Positions 2,959-22,668 of a stretch of DNA of 64,000 nucleotides are shown piece by piece (position 1 is the first letter of the stretch; every line of letters starts with the position of its first letter). Under the pieces are notes generated by a model. It had not been told where the DNA came from. It saw nothing but the letters and a program-made list of their open reading frames with translations, and did no database searches. Where the stretch lies: assembly GCA_026014565.1 (NCBI GenBank), contig JAOZIB010000001.1, positions 1 through 64,000 on the forward strand, read 5' to 3'. A program made the translations under genes and the position numbers. This stretch comes from Candidatus Bathyarchaeum sp. GTDB taxonomy: Archaea; Thermoproteota; Bathyarchaeia; Bathyarchaeales; Bathyarchaeaceae.

Positions 2959-3747
2959 TTAAAAAAGAAATGAACCCAACACCAACCAAATTATGTCACC
3001 AAATGCCAAAGCAACAATCAAACCTACAGTAATAAAAATCAAAAGGGGTAAACCAGGAGTTGCCCACATCCATCCGTTGGGTTTGTTTTCTTTGAGGCGG
3101 TTAATTATGTCTTCTCGTTCATCATAATCGGGAAAAACTAAAAGTTTTGGTGATTTTTCGCCATCCTCATTTATTTCAAAGTCTTCAAGAGGAAACATAT
3201 GACTGTTCTCTAATTTGGATAATTTTATTTTGTAACCACTAACAAGGACGAGAATTTTTCGTACAACAGGTTCGGCTTTCATCCCTTCGAACAGGCCTTC
3301 TTTGTTTTGGGTGATCCATAATAAATTGCGGAAAATCGCGAAAAAAACACTAAGTGCACCCAATAAGACGCCGTTACTAAAGATAGTTATTGGAAACAAG
3401 GGCGAAACAAACCCAACATAATGAGAAAGAAGATTACCAGGGTAAACAGGCAACGCCAAGGCTATGCACATCAGAGCTTTTGCGTCTGCACCTCCAAATC
3501 CTCCAAAATAAAATATTGCGACAGCCAGCCCAGAAGTTATAGCAAAAGATAGGACATAAAAGGTAACCATTTGAAATGGTTGAGAAGAGAAAAATAAAAT
3601 CTGTACTCCAGTTAACAGAAGGGCCAAAGGACCAAAAAGTGCCCAAACCTTGTCACTCACTTCCCTGCTTTTGTAATCACTCCATGACGCGTAAACTAGA
3701 AAAATTAAACAAATAATTATTCGAGCGCCATCAAGTATCTGATTCAA
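2959..3747 (-). CDS. Archaeal type IV prepilin peptidase (A24 family, FlaK/PibD-like)
   Basis: A 262-residue polytopic membrane aspartic protease that would cleave class III signal peptides of pilins. The two catalytic aspartates expected for A24 peptidases are visible: D24 in WSDYKSREV and D88 in GGFGGADAK, the archaeal form of the GxGD motif. A cytosolic charged segment (about 140-215) and a final membrane helix follow. The start is TTG at 3747, 7 nt after GAGG. It lies just downstream of a pilin gene on the same strand (28 nt from that gene's TAA), so the two form a substrate/protease pair. No other prepilin peptidase was seen in the window, so it may also serve the pilus operon at 13.5-22.7 kb. 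Confidence 0.85.
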   Translation of the reverse strand: MNQILDGARIIICLIFLVYASWSDYKSREVSDKVWALFGPLALLLTGVQILFFSSQPFQMVTFYVLSFAITSGLAVAIFYFGGFGGADAKALMCIALALPVYPGNLLSHYVGFVSPLFPITIFSNGVLLGALSVFFAIFRNLLWITQNKEGLFEGMKAEPVVRKILVLVSGYKIKLSKLENSHMFPLEDFEINEDGEKSPKLLVFPDYDEREDIINRLKENKPNGWMWATPGLPLLIFITVGLIVALAFGDIIWLVLGSFLF

Positions 3748-3775: not shown

Positions 3776-4225
3776 TTAAAAAAATGGAGTATAAAAACTA
3801 TGGTGATTAATTAAAAATGGGAAATCTTCAGTTGTAATTTTGAAGTAGTATGTAGGCCCATTAACCCACTTGTAATCCCCTTTAATGGTAAGAGTTCCAC
3901 CTGCTGCAACAATTTGATTCTTTGGAGCATAATCCACATCACTTTGTGTTATTAGATTTGAGGATAAAGTCCCCATATAGACAGCGTCAACTTCTGCGTC
4001 TCCATTCTAGTGTTTCTCACTAAATTCAATGTATTGTATAGATCCATCCACGTCGAATCTGACGTTTTCTTGTTTTAACAGAGATCCATCGTTACTTGTT
4101 GCAGACTCCGTGAAGGTAATTACCCAAGCGCATGTGGCGAAAACTGCAGCTACACTGATGACGATTAAGAATGGCGTTGCAAGGTTTGGTGAGATTCCAT
4201 TTTTTGATTTTATTATGCTTTTCAT
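3776..4225 (-). pseudogene. Archaeal type IV pilin with an in-frame TAG codon
   Basis: The ATG at 4225 follows a GAGG site and opens a protein with a classic archaeal pilin N terminus: basic KSKNG, then ISPNLATPFLIVISVAAV, as in the Pilin_N/DUF1628 family, with cleavage expected after the glycine. The reading frame meets TAG at 4009-4007, after 72 residues. The same frame stays open afterwards for 76 codons to TAA at 3776. That continuation (GDAEVDAVYMGTLSSNL, then NGPTYYFKITTE) matches the usual second half of the pilin beta domain, so the TAG interrupts a single fold. Possible readings are a nonsense mutation, a base error (AAG Lys or CAG Gln would restore it), or amber read-through. TAG is a clean stop elsewhere in the window. 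Confidence 0.7.
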
Positions 4226-4426: not shown

Positions 4427-4937
4427 TCACTCAACAAGCTCAAAAACAAGTAGAAGAGACGCAGTACGGACTTCTAAAATTTCTCCAATTAAAATCTCAA
4501 TGAAGTCCCATAAAAATTTTGAATTACTAATTAATAGAGTTCTGGTAATTATGAATTTGTCTTTAAGGCAAAAGTCTCCAAATCCTTGAATCCGCAATCG
4601 TTTAAACACATCGACCCATTTCTCTTTGTTTGATGTTTCAATGTCCATACTGGCTTCCAGTGAAACTATAGCCATTTTTTCAATTTCTTGTCCAACTTCT
4701 TTCCATTTAGTTTCAGGTATGAACTTGAAGAAAACGTCAAGGAATTCGACGTTGATAAAGGCTACCCGACTAATACAGGTATAGTATTCACCAAGGATTT
4801 TGCAATCATAAATCCGCATATTACGGTAAACATCAAACATCTTGGATGCTAAAGACTTGATTCCAAGTTTCTCTTCCTGGGGCTATGAGGTGTCAATGTA
4901 TTCACGTTCATCCTCATCTAGAATTATTGTTGTTCAT
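4427..4937 (-). pseudogene. Decayed hypothetical gene with two visible lesions
   Basis: The intact part (ATG at 4840 to TGA at 4427, 137 codons) has protein-like composition, but its N terminus is missing. Upstream in the same frame, 14 sensible codons (PQEEKLGIKSLASK) run back to a TAG at 4885-4883, and before that the frame reads TTIILDEDEREYIDTS, a ribbon-helix-helix-like or acidic start. An ATG at 4937 reaches that stretch only if one A is removed just after the start. Two separate lesions suggest a decaying gene more than a single sequencing error. The family is not recognised; the C-terminal part is mixed alpha/beta without motifs I can name. Confidence 0.5.
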
Positions 4938-5172
4938 TTAACTGAGCACTCCGTTGGGTGATGTTTCTTAGGATATACTGTTACCTTCAGAAACATATTT
5001 TATAGGTCTAGATTCCGAATACTCAAACGACGATTAATCTGTTGTTTCAAAAAAGACAAAAAATCACAATAATTACAATCTAGAACACGAAAACGGATTT
5101 TGAGTTCATAAACGTTATTTATCAAAAAATAGAAGAACAAAAAGCATCCACATTCAAAGGAATGTTAAACAA

Positions 5173-13461: not shown

Positions 13462-15438
13462 TTATTCGTCCATTGAAACAGTTGGAGGGTCTTCGACCAT
13501 AACCCAAAGACCATTATCACCAAAAGTAGGATGAATTGGTTCAGCAGTAAAAGTTACTACAGCCCCAGACCAAACTAAGTCCAAAAAATAATCAAAGTCA
13601 TCAACTGAAGCTAATTCTACAGAATTGACTTCAATAATCCGATTGAATGAAGGATAACCAGTTTGCTCCACAACTATTGCCCCAGTATCAGAACCAATGA
13701 TTTTATCAAAAGTGTAAAGATTGCTAGCAACATCTCGGAACATGACCCCAGTCCCTGATGAACCAGCTATAAATTCACTCCAATGATGGTCTTCACTGGA
13801 TGCAGACTGGTTATAATAGGAGCCTGTAGAATCATCAACTACAGGATAGCCGCTAATTGTTCCGTTTTCAGTTAGTGCCGCACCAGTAAATGCTGTATGT
13901 TCTATGATATTGAGATTTGTTAAACGCCTATTCAAACTAGTATCAGAATCAACAAAAATCAGTCGTGATGTGTAAGTATAATAATTTGTGTTCAAAGGCA
14001 AAGTGAAATAAAGTTGGGCATAAAAGTTGGGACAGTTTGTTGCTCCACCGCTGTATTCAGGTTCTTGTTGCAGTATTGTCCTTACACTTCCATCAGCAAT
14101 AACAACAGATGTGCCTGCACCAAAAACAGGAGATTCACTATTAATTCGCAAAAATTCTGCAGCACCACGTATACTTCCGGCAGTTGAAGTGGCTACCAAG
14201 GTTTCCCCAGTAATTCGGACATTTAAACGAATGTTTCCATTGTATAATGTTATATCTGAAGTGTCAGAAACATCACCACTGAAATTATTTTGCCATGCAA
14301 AAGGTGATGTTGTTGCAGTGTCATTTCCGTCCCACCACAAAGTAATTTCACTGATTTCGTTATTAACCATAAAAACCAGCATGTTAGTGTCACTAAACAG
14401 AGTGTCATTACTGGATAACCCTAGGGGTACCATATAATCAGATGCCCAATCTTCTATCTGAAAAGGAACTTCTTGACTGACATCATTAATAGTTGCGTTA
14501 ATACGAAATGCCTTAACAGAAACAGGTGGAATAGGCTGAGTAGAAGCCATTTCGAGAGGTTGACCAAGCCATTTAAGGGTGCCATTTTGAAGAAGTTCGA
14601 TGACAAAATTGTCAGTAGATAAAGAATTGTAGATATTTGATACACCTGTAGACTCCCAATCGAAAGTGTAACTGTAATGAGGAATTTGAGATTCTGATTG
14701 AACAGAAGCTTGGGAATAAAAAGCAGAAACTACTATGCCGCGGTTGTCTTCAATTTGAACGGAGTAAGAGTCTGGGCCTACTCCATTAGGAAGGGGCATT
14801 GTGTAAACGCCATTTGAAGAAATTAGAATATTTGTTGGATTAACTAGCTCCCATTTTGAATCTGCGTAACTGTAATTGTAGAACCAAAAGTTGTCAACTG
14901 TTAACCCTAATTCAGGTTCAGACTCATCACGCATAACACTTATTTCAGCGTGGCCAGACGAAGACACTAACGTGGTTACGGTCAAAGCTGAAGAAGTTTT
15001 GTAAGTTACACCTTCTATTCCAAGAGCACCTAAAGAGTAAGTAACAGATATGTCTCCCATGCTTGAACTCTTAGGCATAAACCAAGAAGTTAAAATGTCA
15101 GCGTCAGAATCAACCGTAAAAGATGGATTCCATTCAGGATGAGAACGAGCAATATTAACTAAGCCACTTGAAAGATAACTTGCTGTCAGTCCCTGAGCAT
15201 AGGACGAATTTCCTGTGACTTGCAAAATTGAACCGTAATAACCTACAGTAAAGTCTAAAATGCTCTTGATATCAGCATTCATTTCACCGATGGCGCCTAA
15301 AACGTCAGGTGAATCGTCTACAGAAGAGTGACGAACTAAAGTATAAGTGGATATTACACCACCAACTAATACTACAGAAACAAGTAATGCCGCAATTACA
15401 AAGAATTGCCCGTTATTTGCTCGACGGTTTTTTCGCAT
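13462..15438 (-). CDS. Large pilin-like subunit of the pilus operon (658 aa)
   Basis: Last gene of the pilus operon and its largest subunit. The N terminus is prepilin-like: basic MRKNRRANNGQ followed by one hydrophobic helix FFVIAALLVSVVLVGGVIST; cleavage would fall after the glycine. The remaining 620 residues are extracellular, beta-rich and Ser/Thr/Asn-rich, with no named domain. A size of 658 aa is far above usual pilins (100-200 aa) and suggests a tip or adhesin-like subunit; that is inference. The ATG at 15438 directly follows the TAA of the preceding gene (15441), so translation is probably coupled. Confidence 0.75.
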   Translation of the reverse strand: MRKNRRANNGQFFVIAALLVSVVLVGGVISTYTLVRHSSVDDSPDVLGAIGEMNADIKSILDFTVGYYGSILQVTGNSSYAQGLTASYLSSGLVNIARSHPEWNPSFTVDSDADILTSWFMPKSSSMGDISVTYSLGALGIEGVTYKTSSALTVTTLVSSSGHAEISVMRDESEPELGLTVDNFWFYNYSYADSKWELVNPTNILISSNGVYTMPLPNGVGPDSYSVQIEDNRGIVVSAFYSQASVQSESQIPHYSYTFDWESTGVSNIYNSLSTDNFVIELLQNGTLKWLGQPLEMASTQPIPPVSVKAFRINATINDVSQEVPFQIEDWASDYMVPLGLSSNDTLFSDTNMLVFMVNNEISEITLWWDGNDTATTSPFAWQNNFSGDVSDTSDITLYNGNIRLNVRITGETLVATSTAGSIRGAAEFLRINSESPVFGAGTSVVIADGSVRTILQQEPEYSGGATNCPNFYAQLYFTLPLNTNYYTYTSRLIFVDSDTSLNRRLTNLNIIEHTAFTGAALTENGTISGYPVVDDSTGSYYNQSASSEDHHWSEFIAGSSGTGVMFRDVASNLYTFDKIIGSDTGAIVVEQTGYPSFNRIIEVNSVELASVDDFDYFLDLVWSGAVVTFTAEPIHPTFGDNGLWVMVEDPPTVSMDE

Positions 15439-15440
15439 GT

Positions 15441-16736
15441 TTAGCTACCTCCTTGTTGACCTAGCTGTAATGTTACAAGTCTTGAAGTGCCACTAGCTCC
15501 AAATTCACTACGATAAACTGTTGGCTGATAGTACATAAGAAGAGCCAAAGCAGTAACTCTGACATCAGGAATTCGTGTAAGACCTATTGCAGTAAATGCC
15601 CCACGACTCTGTTGCTTAAAAGTTGCACCTGCAACATAACCATTTTTGGGGTCAAACACTGTAGCACTATCAGAACGTTCAAGATTGTAATCGGCTTCTA
15701 TGTCGTCAGTTAATGCCCGTGATGCTGTTTGAGCTAAAGCAGGATAAATACCGTAATAATTACATTTTTCAAGTGCGTCAGAAGACAACTGGACAACACC
15801 TACATCATCCTTGATATTACGGTCATCATAAACGTAATCAAGACCGCCTAATCCTTGAAGAAAAGCTCTAACTCCAGCTTGCCCAAGCTGGTTCATTCCA
15901 TAGATGCCCCATCCATTACTGCTTGAGAAATAATCAGTGTTACTAACATAATAACAAGGATAACCTACAATGCTGGCCCAAGTCCAGTTATAATTACTAA
16001 CTCTTTGACCTAGAAAATAGAAGTAACGAGCATAACCACCAGAATACATATGTGCGTAAGTTGAAGGAATGGGTACACATTCCCCAAAAGTGTTTATGAC
16101 GACAGCATTTTCTAAACGCTCTGCATCATCAGTTGTGAGCAAGTTACCAGTTAAAAGCAATTCTAACTCTAAGGTGCTATTCACAAGAACAGTAGTTGCA
16201 AAATAAGGTGAAAGCAGGTCATAAAAATCTGCAGCCAGACTTTGACCAGTATAACCTGTAATCCACCACCCATTTGCGTCCTCACAATTCAAGATATAAA
16301 GCGTAATGCTTTCTCCGTTACTTTCACCTACTTTTTGTGGATCTTCAATGAAAGTAACATCAGGAGAAGAAACCATAACCGATGCAGAATCAGAATCTGC
16401 TCCAAAAAGACTGTTAGAAATAGTATTACTCAATTGGTAAGTTACTACACCAAAATCTTCAGAAAGGTCGTAAACAGTCAAATTATAAACTACATTAACA
16501 GGCAAAGAAGCAGACAAAGCTTTTTGCAGAGCACTCCATGAAACATCATCATCCTCATTAAAGACAGTTGCACTTAGCACGCCTTTAGCATCTAAGGTTT
16601 CAAGGGTAGATTGAGCTAATCCATCAAGATTGGTGCCAAAAGCTTCTGTTGCTGAAGGTAAAACAGCAAACTGAGTCGCAATAGTAAAGGATGTTAAGAG
16701 TATCATAATTACAAACAAAACTTCTACTGTTCGCAT
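15441..16736 (-). CDS. Pilin-like subunit of the pilus operon (about 431 aa)
   Basis: The N terminus MRTVEVLFVIMILLTSFTIA is a short basic start followed directly by a hydrophobic helix with an early glutamate, as in pseudopilins. The rest is a long extracellular beta-rich region with many Tyr, Ser and Asn residues and a few cysteines; no named domain is recognised. The ATG at 16736 is chosen over the TTG one codon earlier. It begins 17 nt after the TAG of the preceding gene. A structural or minor-subunit role in the pilus is inferred from position and N terminus. Confidence 0.7.
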   Translation of the reverse strand: MRTVEVLFVIMILLTSFTIATQFAVLPSATEAFGTNLDGLAQSTLETLDAKGVLSATVFNEDDDVSWSALQKALSASLPVNVVYNLTVYDLSEDFGVVTYQLSNTISNSLFGADSDSASVMVSSPDVTFIEDPQKVGESNGESITLYILNCEDANGWWITGYTGQSLAADFYDLLSPYFATTVLVNSTLELELLLTGNLLTTDDAERLENAVVINTFGECVPIPSTYAHMYSGGYARYFYFLGQRVSNYNWTWASIVGYPCYYVSNTDYFSSSNGWGIYGMNQLGQAGVRAFLQGLGGLDYVYDDRNIKDDVGVVQLSSDALEKCNYYGIYPALAQTASRALTDDIEADYNLERSDSATVFDPKNGYVAGATFKQQSRGAFTAIGLTRIPDVRVTALALLMYYQPTVYRSEFGASGTSRLVTLQLGQQGGS

Positions 16737-16753
16737 CAACGCTCATTCATCAC

Positions 16754-17962
16754 CTAGTTCCCCAACTTCCACACAGAAACTTTCACCTGATAGGAGATAT
16801 CATCAATAGTAACTTGCCTAATTTCAGTGGCAACAAAATTGTAATCCTTAGAACCAAATTCACTTTTGAACATTGCAGGAACACCAACAGTGCCAACACC
16901 CCAAGGAACAATAACGCTTCCAACTTTGTTGGTGTCTTTTACATATGAAATAACTAGAATTCCCACTTCATCTTCCGGAATGTCCAACGTAAAATAGGGT
17001 TGACTTTCACCATAATTCAAAGGTCCAGTTGGACAAACAACTTCAACTTCTTGAAAATGAAAATCAGAAGTCAAAACAAAGAAACTAGCATCACAATGCA
17101 CAATATCAGTTATACTGTCATCTTTGAATATGTCCCAAGCATGCGCAATTATTACTTCTCCAGTTTCATAATCTTCGATCAAGGGAACAACAAATGGAAG
17201 ATTACCCACAAGAGCATCTTGAGCATAGTATCCAACACCTGTAACGCCACCTAATTCAGCATAAACAACAAAAGAAAATGCATCATCAGAAAGAATTGAT
17301 GTAAAATCCAAAATAGCTTCACCATAAGGATTCGTCTGAACAACTCCCAGATCAGGTGGAGGTATTATTTCGCCATCTCCAGCAATGTGAAAAATATAAT
17401 ATTTCAAAGTGGCTCCACTTAAAGGCAAACTTAATCCAGTAACGTTAACTTTAAGGGAAACATAAGACTCAGAAAGTTTCTCAATATTAACATTCAAAGT
17501 TGGTGTAATGTCAATACTAAAATCATACTCACCAGTTAAGCCTAAAAAGTCTGAAACTTCTTCATGGGTAAGACATTCACCGACTGAAGTGTAAACGCCA
17601 CTACCAAAACCAGCAGTAAGATTGTTATAATAAGCACCAGGCCCCTTTGGATATTCAATTAAATCATTTTCATGAGTCTGTAGTCGCATTACAGAATATG
17701 GACTTAGTGTGTACCCGCTGGCATCAGGGTCTTGAAGACCAAAACCTAACACATCATCATCTGTTTCGCCCCAATCGACAGGGCTTCCGGGGGACAAACA
17801 AATGCTGTTCATGACATCAACTGCTTTGTTGGCTATTTGACGGTTAGTGTCATATTCTAGTGCTTGAGCAAATAAGCCGTTAAAGGTCATCATTGTTAAC
17901 AACATAGCAGTTAGAAGAATTGTTACTGCAATTATGTGGTCTATCGTCGCGCCGCTAGCCAT
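16754..17962 (-). CDS. Pilin-like subunit of the pilus operon (402 aa)
   Basis: The N terminus MASGATIDHIIAVTILLTAM is a single membrane helix with an acidic residue near its start, similar to the neighbouring subunits. Residues from about 60 on form an extracellular beta-rich domain with Ig-like strands (LSESYVSLKVNVTGLSLPLS). No enzyme motif is seen. The ATG at 17962 touches the TAA of the upstream gene (17963), indicating translational coupling. The gene ends in TAG, followed within 20 nt by the next start. Confidence 0.7.
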   Translation of the reverse strand: MASGATIDHIIAVTILLTAMLLTMMTFNGLFAQALEYDTNRQIANKAVDVMNSICLSPGSPVDWGETDDDVLGFGLQDPDASGYTLSPYSVMRLQTHENDLIEYPKGPGAYYNNLTAGFGSGVYTSVGECLTHEEVSDFLGLTGEYDFSIDITPTLNVNIEKLSESYVSLKVNVTGLSLPLSGATLKYYIFHIAGDGEIIPPPDLGVVQTNPYGEAILDFTSILSDDAFSFVVYAELGGVTGVGYYAQDALVGNLPFVVPLIEDYETGEVIIAHAWDIFKDDSITDIVHCDASFFVLTSDFHFQEVEVVCPTGPLNYGESQPYFTLDIPEDEVGILVISYVKDTNKVGSVIVPWGVGTVGVPAMFKSEFGSKDYNFVATEIRQVTIDDISYQVKVSVWKLGN

Positions 17963-18445
17963 TTAGCTACCTCCAAACGAAAACACAATTGTGTGGTCAG
18001 CATCATCTAGTTTTTGAACCATAATCGATGCATCAACAGAAGTACTTCTGAAACTTGAGTCAACCCATTGCACATTTGTACCTAATACAGCTGACGCAGT
18101 AACTGTGTTACCGACATCATCCAAAGTCAAAAATGCGGTGAAAACTTTAGCAGACCCATCTCCAGGATCATAAAGTGAACCTTCTACTGTGTATGGATAA
18201 AACGCAACGGTTACAGGAACAGGAGATTCTTGAGTAACTGTTCCAGTTAAGATTTCTTCACTGTTTACTGACAAATATAACTGCTGAATTGTACTAGCCA
18301 TATGATCAGCAACATCCTGCAATTCTATTCTGAGTTGAGCTTCTTGAGTTTCAGTAGTAATTCTGTTTGCAACTAACGGAAACACTATAACCGTAGAAAA
18401 CAACAGCGGAATCATGATAACATACTCAATTGTTATATTAACCAA
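17963..18445 (-). CDS. TadE-like pseudopilin subunit (160 aa)
   Basis: A small subunit whose N terminus, MVNITIEYVIMIPLLFSTVI, closely resembles the TadE/pseudopilin pattern (acidic residue, aromatic, three hydrophobics, proline, then a leucine-rich helix). The rest is a compact beta-rich extracellular domain. TTG at 18445 is the start, about 10 nt after GGGAGG. It is the size of a typical major or minor pilin and is one of two plausible filament-forming subunits in this operon, the other being the gene just upstream. The exact role cannot be read from sequence. Confidence 0.7.
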   Translation of the reverse strand: MVNITIEYVIMIPLLFSTVIVFPLVANRITTETQEAQLRIELQDVADHMASTIQQLYLSVNSEEILTGTVTQESPVPVTVAFYPYTVEGSLYDPGDGSAKVFTAFLTLDDVGNTVTASAVLGTNVQWVDSSFRSTSVDASIMVQKLDDADHTIVFSFGGS

Positions 18446-18472
18446 ACATGAATGCCTCCCAACTCACATGTT

Positions 18473-19378
18473 CTAACTAACTCCAAAGCCAACGGACACC
18501 TCACTCAGATAAAGCTCCAAAACAACATTAGCGTACTTATCCTCTTCAGGAGGAATTACAATAGAAGGAATATCAATCACTTGACGATGAGCAGGAAAGT
18601 TGAAAAAGTCAGAATCAAAACCATACGCAGCATCTGGGAATTCGACCGTAACAGTGATACTAGCAACTCGATTCAAAGTTTTCGCAGTAACGGATTCTCC
18701 AGTCAAAGTTATGGACTGATATAACCTAGGAGACTCCCCGGCAGTCAAAACAGGAAGATACATCCGTACATAACGCGTGTTTGTAGAAGAGTTAATCGAA
18801 GAATACAAAACCCTAATCGCAGGTGCAACAACAACTCGTATGTAATCACCATCAAGCATGGGAACTTGCTCAACCTCAAACACACGAGCAACCGGAGCAG
18901 AAGTGCCAGTCAACGTAAGGGAAGTGTCTTGATTGGGCTCAGGATACAGTTTTACCCAGTAATCATCACTAATAGAAAACTCGTAAGTTGGCATATTAAA
19001 CATAAGAGCCCCAGTTGTGTTTATGAAATCGTGCTTGACGTTATCAGACACCACAGACACATTGTAAGTTATCACACCTGGTTCGAATTCAACATCTCCA
19101 TACTGGGTCGCATAAGTGAGGGTTTCTGTGCGACCTGCAGTCCAAGCTACGTCATCAATCTGAAGCCCAACAGACTGCATCAACTGTTTAGAAGAAGCAT
19201 AGTCGCTTTCAGCGACTCGGGTCCACAAAAAATCATTAGCAAACCCTAACGCAACACTGAGGATGGCAATCATGGCACCAGTCATGATTACTGAAGAGAT
19301 AGCCGGACTAATCGCTAGTTTGTCCGAACCTTTCTTATGCAACTTATTTAGCAACATTGACAGTTTCTCCTTTTTCAT
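18473..19378 (-). CDS. Archaeal pilin-like subunit with class III signal (301 aa)
   Basis: The N terminus MKKEKLSMLLNKLHKKGSDK leads into LAISPAISSVIMTGAMIAIL, matching the ISPAIATIL pattern of archaeal type IV pilins, with cleavage expected before ISPA. A beta-rich extracellular domain of about 240 residues follows. The ATG at 19378 overlaps the end of the platform gene (TAG at 19382-19380) with an internal GGATGAAAA context; longer in-frame starts would read into the platform gene and were rejected. The stop is TAG. It sits directly after the assembly machinery, as major pilins often do. Confidence 0.75.
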   Translation of the reverse strand: MKKEKLSMLLNKLHKKGSDKLAISPAISSVIMTGAMIAILSVALGFANDFLWTRVAESDYASSKQLMQSVGLQIDDVAWTAGRTETLTYATQYGDVEFEPGVITYNVSVVSDNVKHDFINTTGALMFNMPTYEFSISDDYWVKLYPEPNQDTSLTLTGTSAPVARVFEVEQVPMLDGDYIRVVVAPAIRVLYSSINSSTNTRYVRMYLPVLTAGESPRLYQSITLTGESVTAKTLNRVASITVTVEFPDAAYGFDSDFFNFPAHRQVIDIPSIVIPPEEDKYANVVLELYLSEVSVGFGVS

Positions 19379-19379
19379 C

Positions 19380-21086
19380 CTACAATAACATTGGAACAAT
19401 CTTTGATGCAACAATAGCAATGAGCACCAGCAAAGCAGCATGTTTAAAACCAGCAGACAAAGACTCTTCACTGATTTTGCCACAGACCAAGCCAATCAAG
19501 TAACAATGAGTAATTACAGACACAGTAAAAATCAAAGTAAGATAATCCGTATTAGCAGTAGATGTGGAAACTTCAGCACCCATAGCAACAGTGTTTGTAG
19601 TAAACAACAGAGTCATCAGAGTGGTTGCTACCAACAATATTCCACCAAAGTAGGGCATAATCATGTAAGGTCGAATGCTCATTTTCTTCTCTTTTTCAAC
19701 TTCTTGGGTCATATTGTTGAATCGTGCAAGTGATTCAATCATGGAGATTGTACCACCACCTACGTCGACAGCTTCCAACAGCAAGAACATTACAATCTGC
19801 GACATCCAACTCCTGGTTTTTTTCACGAAATCCATGATAACATTTCTCATTGGAATACCCCAACTGATATCCGAAGCCATCTTACGGAGTTCAGGTGAGA
19901 ATGCACCATAGTCTCGTGTTGAAAGATTTTTAATACAAGCTTCGGGAGAAAGCCCAGTCTTACGAGTTTCAGTCATGTCCCTAAGAAAGTTGGACACACC
20001 ACGTTCTATGCTGGCTTTTCTACCTGCAATTTTTTGATGAACAATAGCAGGCGGCACAACAGACACAATCAAAGTTATAGAAACTGCAATGGGCAAATCA
20101 ACAAATCCCTCAAAAGGAGTTGCAACGTATCCAAAGAATCCAGTAAGAAGCAAAAGAATTACAACGCCTACAACCAAAGAAACAACATATACTTTATACG
20201 GCCGCATTTCGCTGATGGGACTTTTTGGTTGCATAGAATGAGACATCCATATGAAAACAACAGATAGCAACGGAGTGAAAACGTAGGTATACATGATTAC
20301 ATTAGCGCCCATGTCCATTCCTGTGCTGTATATGGATTCAACACTGAAGAGGATGTAGAAACAAAGGGACATCAAAACCATTACAATAATGAAGGTTTCA
20401 AGAAGCATTCCCATTCGTTCTGCTGCGGCTTTGACTTGCATGGATCCTGACTTGAAGATTTCTTGGGCTTTTGTTTCAAGGAAGTGAATAACGTCACCTC
20501 CAATGATGACGGTAGAAGCATAACCAGAAAGGAAGTCTCTAAAAATATCCAGTGGGTTGTTTTTTGCTGCTTTTTCAAGAGCACTAAGGGGATCTACTCC
20601 AAAAATTTCTACGTCCCGTATTAGACCTCTAGATTCTTTTCGGGTAGCAGGTAATAATTCAACTTCGGTAAGACGTTTGAAACTCATGTAAGGTGGAATG
20701 CCACCGGATGCCATGACCGTAACGTAGGTTGCTGCGAAGGGCATTTCCCGTTCTAAAGCAGCTGCTCGTTCACTGGCTCGTGAACTAGGTATAATCATGA
20801 ACCCAATCATAACGTAGATGGGCATGGGAACCAGCAAAATTAATGGAACAAATTGGGTAAAGTAAATCAGAACAAGAGAAATAACAGACACGGGCAGGGT
20901 CAGAGTTGCAACCAAAAACATCAATGAAATATAAGTTTCAGGATAGATTTTGATATCTGCTCGAGTTAGGTGCTCTTTGAATTCAAAGATGCCACTTAGG
21001 AATTTGGGGGCGATTCCACCGAAAAGGCGGTAAGAAATGCCCTCAAGTGTTTTTAGCAGTGGCAGAAGCAAGAACCTCCTTTTCAT
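19380..21086 (-). CDS. Type IV pilus/type II secretion platform protein (FlaJ/TadC/GspF-like)
   Basis: A 568-residue polytopic membrane protein with two T2SSF modules, each a cytosolic helical bundle followed by membrane helices (first module about 100-210, second about 340-450), as in archaeal FlaJ-type platform proteins that receive torque from the secretion ATPase. The start at 21086 overlaps the end of the ATPase gene by 44 nt, so the two are translationally coupled. The C terminus has three to four helices. Nothing is missing relative to the family. Confidence 0.9.
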   Translation of the reverse strand: MKRRFLLLPLLKTLEGISYRLFGGIAPKFLSGIFEFKEHLTRADIKIYPETYISLMFLVATLTLPVSVISLVLIYFTQFVPLILLVPMPIYVMIGFMIIPSSRASERAAALEREMPFAATYVTVMASGGIPPYMSFKRLTEVELLPATRKESRGLIRDVEIFGVDPLSALEKAAKNNPLDIFRDFLSGYASTVIIGGDVIHFLETKAQEIFKSGSMQVKAAAERMGMLLETFIIVMVLMSLCFYILFSVESIYSTGMDMGANVIMYTYVFTPLLSVVFIWMSHSMQPKSPISEMRPYKVYVVSLVVGVVILLLLTGFFGYVATPFEGFVDLPIAVSITLIVSVVPPAIVHQKIAGRKASIERGVSNFLRDMTETRKTGLSPEACIKNLSTRDYGAFSPELRKMASDISWGIPMRNVIMDFVKKTRSWMSQIVMFLLLEAVDVGGGTISMIESLARFNNMTQEVEKEKKMSIRPYMIMPYFGGILLVATTLMTLLFTTNTVAMGAEVSTSTANTDYLTLIFTVSVITHCYLIGLVCGKISEESLSAGFKHAALLVLIAIVASKIVPMLL

Positions 21087-22668
21087 AGAATTCTTCAGGT
21101 TTCGCGTTGTATTCTGTGATTACTCCTGCGACGTCTCGGTAACTTCGAATGTTACGGTCACGCATCCACTTCAGAACATTTTCACGTTGTTTGATTTGAT
21201 CAACTAATTCTTTCCAAGTCAAACCTCGGCGTTCACAAATCTGGTTCATCATTATACCAGCTTTGAAGTTCGATTTATGAACGTCACCAACAGCTTTCCA
21301 CGTAAAGGTCTCTCGATAATCTTCGTAATCTGCGATTTCATTAACGTTGAGCACTCGTCGATAGGCAGTCATTTCACCAGTTTTTGATTGAGGTAAGTGT
21401 ACTCGTTGGATGGATACAACAATGTTCATCAGGGGCATGTATGAAGGGGCAATGTCCATTGGCTTTTGGATTAAACGTTTAACAGCAGATTCAACCGAGT
21501 CGGCGTGCATTGTCGCCATACCACCATGGCCTGTTGCCAAAGCCTGGAACAATGTATATGCTTCGCTACCTCGAATCTCACCGACCATGATCAAGTCAGG
21601 GCGGTGTCTCATGGAGGTTTTGACCAGATCGAAAAGGGTTACTTCTCCAGTGAGGTTTTCTCCTAGGCCGTAACTTCTCCTTGCAATAAGCGATACCCAG
21701 TTCTCATGGGGCAGGTTCAATTCCGCAGTCTCTTCAATGGTGATTACTTTACTTCCTGGTTTGAGCAAACAAGCAACCGCGTTAAGGAAAGTGGTTTTTC
21801 CGGATGCTGTTCCACCCAAAACCATCAAAGAGGCACGGTTTTCGAGACAGGTCCAGAAATAAGCAGCCATTTCCTCGGACAAAGTCCCCAGATTTATTAG
21901 GTCGATGATCGAGTATGGGTCGTCTCGGAATTTTCGGATTGTGAATGCTGTTCCGAAGGGTGTAATTTCGCGTCGATAACATACAGCGAGCCTGTGTTTT
22001 CCAGGCAAAGAAGCATCCACAATTGGGAATGCTGAACTGACGTGTTTTCCAGCCATGTGAACTAGTTTTACTACGGCGTCGTCTACTTCTTGGTCGTTGT
22101 GAAAAACTAGGTTAGTTTCAAGGTTTTCGTATCGACGGTGCCAGATGTATACAGGTTTTTCAACACCGTCACAGGAAATGTCTTCGATGTTTGGGTCTCG
22201 CATCAAAGCGTCGATTCTACCAAAACCAACCAAATTTCTTTGAGCGTGATAAAGGATTTTTGACCATGAAACGTCAGGTAACCAACCTAAACTGATTCGG
22301 TATTTGCCGACAATTTTTTCAGCTTCATTAACGAAAAAATGTCGGGGGTCTTCAATTTCTGCTTTGGGGGAAGCAATTTCGGCTAGAAGAATTTCTAATA
22401 TGCGGTCGTAAATATTCCTCTCAAGTATGTCAAGACGCAATTCGTCTAGAATGTATTTATACTCCCCAGTTACAGGGTTTTTTGCAATGGCAGCATGGGC
22501 AAAAGGTTCGTAAAGTGGATACCGTTCAACAATTCGGTACCCTTTAGGTAAAGGCTTAGGAGGGGGCGCAGGAGGTGATGCTTTCACTGTTGGTGTTTTC
22601 TTGAAGATCTTAGCAGGTGACTTTAATGCTGCTGAGATTCTCTTGTTAAAACTCTTAATCCTCTGCAT
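21043..22668 (-). CDS. Type II/IV secretion system ATPase (FlaI/TadA/GspE superfamily)
   Basis: A 541-residue hexameric motor that powers pilus assembly at the inner face of the membrane. Visible motifs are Walker A GGTASGKT (285-292), the Asp box ITIEETAEL (309-317), Walker B DLIMVGEIRG (358-367) and the His box GHGGMATMHADS (380-391). The N terminus carries a basic stretch and a Pro-rich linker (about 25-42). It is the first gene of the operon; ATG at 22668. No FlaH, FlaF/G or flagellin-like gene is present, so this is a pilus-type system and not an archaellum. Confidence 0.93.
   Translation of the reverse strand: MQRIKSFNKRISAALKSPAKIFKKTPTVKASPPAPPPKPLPKGYRIVERYPLYEPFAHAAIAKNPVTGEYKYILDELRLDILERNIYDRILEILLAEIASPKAEIEDPRHFFVNEAEKIVGKYRISLGWLPDVSWSKILYHAQRNLVGFGRIDALMRDPNIEDISCDGVEKPVYIWHRRYENLETNLVFHNDQEVDDAVVKLVHMAGKHVSSAFPIVDASLPGKHRLAVCYRREITPFGTAFTIRKFRDDPYSIIDLINLGTLSEEMAAYFWTCLENRASLMVLGGTASGKTTFLNAVACLLKPGSKVITIEETAELNLPHENWVSLIARRSYGLGENLTGEVTLFDLVKTSMRHRPDLIMVGEIRGSEAYTLFQALATGHGGMATMHADSVESAVKRLIQKPMDIAPSYMPLMNIVVSIQRVHLPQSKTGEMTAYRRVLNVNEIADYEDYRETFTWKAVGDVHKSNFKAGIMMNQICERRGLTWKELVDQIKQRENVLKWMRDRNIRSYRDVAGVITEYNAKPEEFYEKEVLASATAKNT

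Follow-up and report, generated by a model that had tools for sequence, protein, structure and literature searches.

In Methanosarcina, the mtmB, mtbB and mttB genes contain a TAG that is kept in their homologues, and pylTSBCD are present. For Candidatus Bathyarchaeum tardum, the description records no pili in electron microscopy and mentions neither pyrrolysine nor the pilin gene considered here (PMC10477458). We analyzed a 64,000-nucleotide stretch (the window) from a Candidatus Bathyarchaeum genome of 1.81 Mb (43 contigs, 95.7% complete), in which a TAG interrupts a pilin frame. Comparison with syntenic, intact congeneric orthologues, in protein and DNA alignments, identified the segment at 3776..4225 on the minus strand (fragments 4225-4007 and 4006-3776) as a decaying type IV pilin pseudogene in which the TAG is a by-product of indels and no recoding is involved, a reading that we hold at a probability of about 0.96.

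The minus-strand frame begins with ATG at 4225, where a ribosome-binding-like sequence and the start codon are still present, and reads MKSIIKSKNGISP...IQYIEFSEKH up to TAG at 4009-4007. Past this codon another 76 sense codons (NGDAEVDAVYMG...TYYFKITTED...) follow without a change of frame, ending in TAA at 3778-3776. The next gene downstream is an intact A24 (type IV leader) prepilin peptidase of 262 aa (2959..3747, minus strand) with an archaeal type II C-terminus (Arc_PepC_II). The first-pass annotation, made from the window alone, had described this in-frame TAG, the 76 open codons beyond it and the adjoining peptidase, and all three proved real, with the coordinates it had given being right. 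The frame downstream of the TAG is not mere chance, since intact orthologues have a homologous sequence as their C-terminal half; over the alignable length, protein identity across the TAG is 45–55%.

We searched eight genomes of the genus, the window genome included, and seven of them contained the pilin: the window copy with its one internal TAG, five intact copies, and a fragment at a contig end (G001). The eighth genome of this set (G004) gave no match. Wherever enough flank was read, the order of regulator, pilin and A24 peptidase was conserved in the congeners, and a less closely related Bathyarchaeota genome (L045) has the same order. The window peptidase is 80% identical to the B. tardum enzyme and 65–67% identical to those of other Bathyarchaeum. 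At the TAG site, all five alignable congeneric orthologues carry sense codons. We found no genome of the same species as the window genome in which fixation of the lesions could be seen.

A split pilin gene is absent from all sister genomes compared. This bears on the proposal that fragments 4225-4007 and 3976-3776 each yield a protein of their own, or that a programmed frameshift bypasses the stop. An ATG at 3976-3974 does open a 66-aa ORF (3976-3776), as the proposal would need; this ORF, however, begins inside the beta domain, without the signal and helix that a pilin needs, and the N-terminal signal block of the upstream fragment is itself degraded. We consider the probability of this arrangement negligible.

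The origin of the TAG was resolved by DNA alignment. In a MAFFT alignment, the window copy showed two gaps relative to all aligned orthologues, one of 2 nt ahead of the TAG and one of 1 nt behind it. The 2-nt deletion lies at 4020..4023 (minus strand), its exact position being ambiguous among these bases; the 1-nt deletion, at 4004..4005 (minus strand), restores the original frame. The TAG itself (4007..4009, minus strand) straddles the orthologue codons for Ser and Gly of an N-S-G motif: read in the original register, the site encodes Asn, Thr and Arg, against Asn-Ser-Gly in the orthologues, and the residues FSEKH beside the TAG are not read in the frame of the ancestral gene. The two-gap alignment gave 43/62 identity with every orthologue, and the gain over the best single 3-nt gap was 7, 6, 4 and 8 identities for four orthologues. 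In 180 controls, in which one codon was deleted in silico from an intact orthologue and the gain from two gaps was scored, the gain was 3 identities or fewer throughout. The TAG is therefore present only because the stretch between the −2 and −1 indels is read out of register. Of the nonsense mutation that had been offered as one explanation, the inactivation of the gene stands; the substitution does not, the TAG being an out-of-frame product of the two deletions.

The rest of the pilin gene is also decayed. At its 3′ end (3776..3826, minus strand), 9–10 nt are deleted after the TE(D/E) codons, the native C-terminus and stop are lost, and the frame runs on for about 12 residues; the gap is explained about as well by an in-frame deletion of 9 nt as by a frameshifting one of 10 nt, and the native stop is lost either way. 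The 26-residue signal/helix block GISPILATLLLIVIAVAAVIVTYAWV is identical in the intact congeners and carries 7 changes in the window copy. Constraint was measured as private changes at alignment columns that do not vary among the other four genomes: dN/dS was computed as well and, with dS near saturation, was not taken as evidence. By this count the window genome showed 12 private changes at 51 invariant columns in the pilin versus 8 at 112 in the peptidase (Fisher p = 0.008); the B. tardum values were 2/41 for the pilin and 3/68 for the regulator.

Profile searches gave a consistent picture. The archaellin/type IV pilin N-terminus model TIGR02537 scored 27–31 bits in the intact relatives (cut-off 20) and had no match in the window pilin, even at E ≤ 10. 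Pfam searches returned no pilin family for the window copy, nor for its intact orthologues, and PF07790 had no match anywhere in the window genome, so that assignment to the Pilin_N type, as first proposed, found no support in the decayed copy or in its intact relatives. The description of the domain as conserved likewise did not survive comparison: residues invariant in the orthologues are changed, the last 12–15 residues are non-homologous, and the native stop is gone. The window copy thus lacks both features that mark a functional type IV pilin, a TIGR02537 signal/helix match and an uninterrupted frame, and combines several independent inactivating lesions with relaxed constraint at conserved residues, as a pseudogene does.

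These results also bear on the possibility that a functional pilin gene recently acquired a single nonsense mutation. Such a mutation would leave the reading frame open before and after the TAG, as it is here, with 45–55% similarity to the orthologues. The TAG nevertheless arose from indels and not from a substitution, and decay extends to the 3′ end, to the conserved N-terminal block and to the neighbouring gene, which makes this explanation extremely unlikely.

That neighbouring gene, upstream of the pilin, is a regulator pseudogene (4427..4966, minus strand), intact in the congeners at 178–196 aa. Pfam and NCBIfam searches returned no family for it; its N-terminal pattern, SVKRTTIILDEDEREYIDxLI, suggests that it probably encoded a regulator of ribbon-helix-helix type. 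In the window, a 4-nt deletion accompanies the loss of the start codon, and an Arg codon has become TGA at 4936-4934; with this first part damaged, the frame starts only at 'MFDVYRNMRIYDC'. A second TAG, at 4885-4883, is flanked by a −1 indel on one side and a +1 indel on the other. Allowing two 1-nt indels gained 5–11 identities for the window regulator, versus 0–1 between intact copies. Private changes occurred at 20 of its 85 invariant columns, against the 8/112 of the peptidase in the same genome (Fisher p = 0.002).

With several lesions in two adjacent genes, a single base error is ruled out, and the suggestion that base error had produced the TAG falls with it. That the locus is intact and was garbled more extensively in assembly or base calling is very unlikely: the genome is a draft, and indels are typical of some long-read data, but the lesions comprise an excess of amino-acid substitutions across two genes, a lost start, and deletions of 2, 4 and 9–10 nt, while the adjacent peptidase and the other window genes are open.

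Insertion of pyrrolysine at the TAG, yielding a full-length pilin, would require a corresponding machinery. Within the 95.7%-complete assembly of the window genome, PylS reached at best 30 bits against a cut-off of 178, PylB gave weak radical-SAM matches of at most 35 bits against a cut-off of 348, and PylD had no match. Two sub-threshold PylS_Cterm matches (30 and 25 bits) were set aside as HisRS-like and PheRS-alpha-like on reading their sequences. None of the seven congeners carried PylS above its cut-off, and a tRNA scan of the 64-kb window returned one tRNA-Arg. In favour of pyrrolysine, a genome of the same family and another genus (G017) encodes, at L037:1390-3377, a PylS C-terminal-type synthetase (277 aa, 276 bits) with PylB (407 bits) immediately after it; ARAGORN found no tRNA at this locus. 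Pyrrolysine is therefore not foreign to the wider group, with no sign of a role at the window pilin.

The remaining observations also argue against read-through. TAG terminates 18 of 59 window genes (ORFs picked by hand as likely genes), which bears out the earlier judgement that it is an ordinary stop here and that wholesale recoding is unlikely. The neighbouring regulator is interrupted by a TGA too, and the segment around the pilin TAG is frameshifted. Comparison with sister genomes, proposed at the outset as a check on read-through, went against it: the sister copies are intact and have no TAG, and in the window copy decay is seen both before and after it. The probability of pyrrolysine insertion is thus vanishingly small; as far as the completeness of the assembly allows, this reading is already refuted, barring pylTSBCD in the ~4% of the genome that the assembly lacks.

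Taken together, these data are consistent with the following course of pseudogene formation, in which the loss of function in the cell and the order of the mutations are steps that we infer. In its relatives, the pilin is the middle gene of a conserved trio of regulator, pilin and prepilin peptidase. In this lineage, pilin and regulator would have lost function and gathered indels and substitutions, with the peptidase retained. A 2-nt deletion would have shifted the pilin frame for about 18 nt, so that parts of the former Ser and Gly codons came to read TAG, and a 1-nt deletion would have put the frame back; because of this restoration, the downstream half is still pilin-like.

Two observations count against the pseudogene reading. 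The ribosome-binding-like sequence and the start codon of the pilin persist, and each of the two broken genes keeps its downstream frame (a net change of −3 in the pilin and of 0 around the regulator TAG), a somewhat tidier outcome than would be expected of random decay. The same preserved net frame, and nothing further, supports the idea that pilin and regulator are silenced yet revertible through compensating indels, with the TAG partly read by a non-pyrrolysine suppressor, an idea that we consider exceedingly improbable.

Pilin loss in this lineage may exceed one gene, since TIGR02537 had no match in the whole window genome and 7–8 matches in each of the near-complete congeners G005–G007. 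The peptidase gives the only Arc_PepC_II match found in the window genome, and it was presumably kept as the only such enzyme, with other substrates still to process. The window also contains, at 13462-22668 on the minus strand, a cluster with a T2SSE ATPase (21043-22668) and a T2SSF membrane protein (19380-21086), several neighbours of which have pilin-like N-termini; none of these matches NCBIfam models. Elsewhere in the window genome (contig C10, L053:1501-1920), a 139-aa protein carries a pilin-like signal, KNREAITPVTAAIAVISGMVGVAIIV, and weakly resembles an intact Bathyarchaeum pilin (E = 0.016). The pilin-like proteins of the cluster and this 139-aa protein are possible remaining substrates of the peptidase.

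The locus carries a caution: an in-frame TAG within a homologous frame can stem from two small compensating indels, and DNA-level comparison with relatives is the only way to tell these from read-through. As a biological record, it documents one Bathyarchaeum lineage that lost a pilin and its regulator and kept the peptidase.

Set against known systems, the window copy occupies the same slot between regulator and peptidase as the pilins of B. tardum (JARVGH010000001, L041) and other Bathyarchaeum. Unlike the window copy, those pilins have no internal stop, retain the native C-terminus and an intact class III signal/helix block, and match TIGR02537. As in Methanosarcina mtmB, mtbB and mttB, a TAG lies in frame within a homologous reading frame; the window pilin differs from them in that the TAG is unconserved and that no pylS, pylB or pylD was found in its genome. 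With ordinary prokaryotic pseudogenes, the window pair shares frameshifts, stop codons, a lost start and a lost stop, a decayed neighbour, and raised amino-acid change at constrained sites. Pilin and regulator are an ordinary pseudogene pair, unusual only in the compensating indels that hold the net frame.
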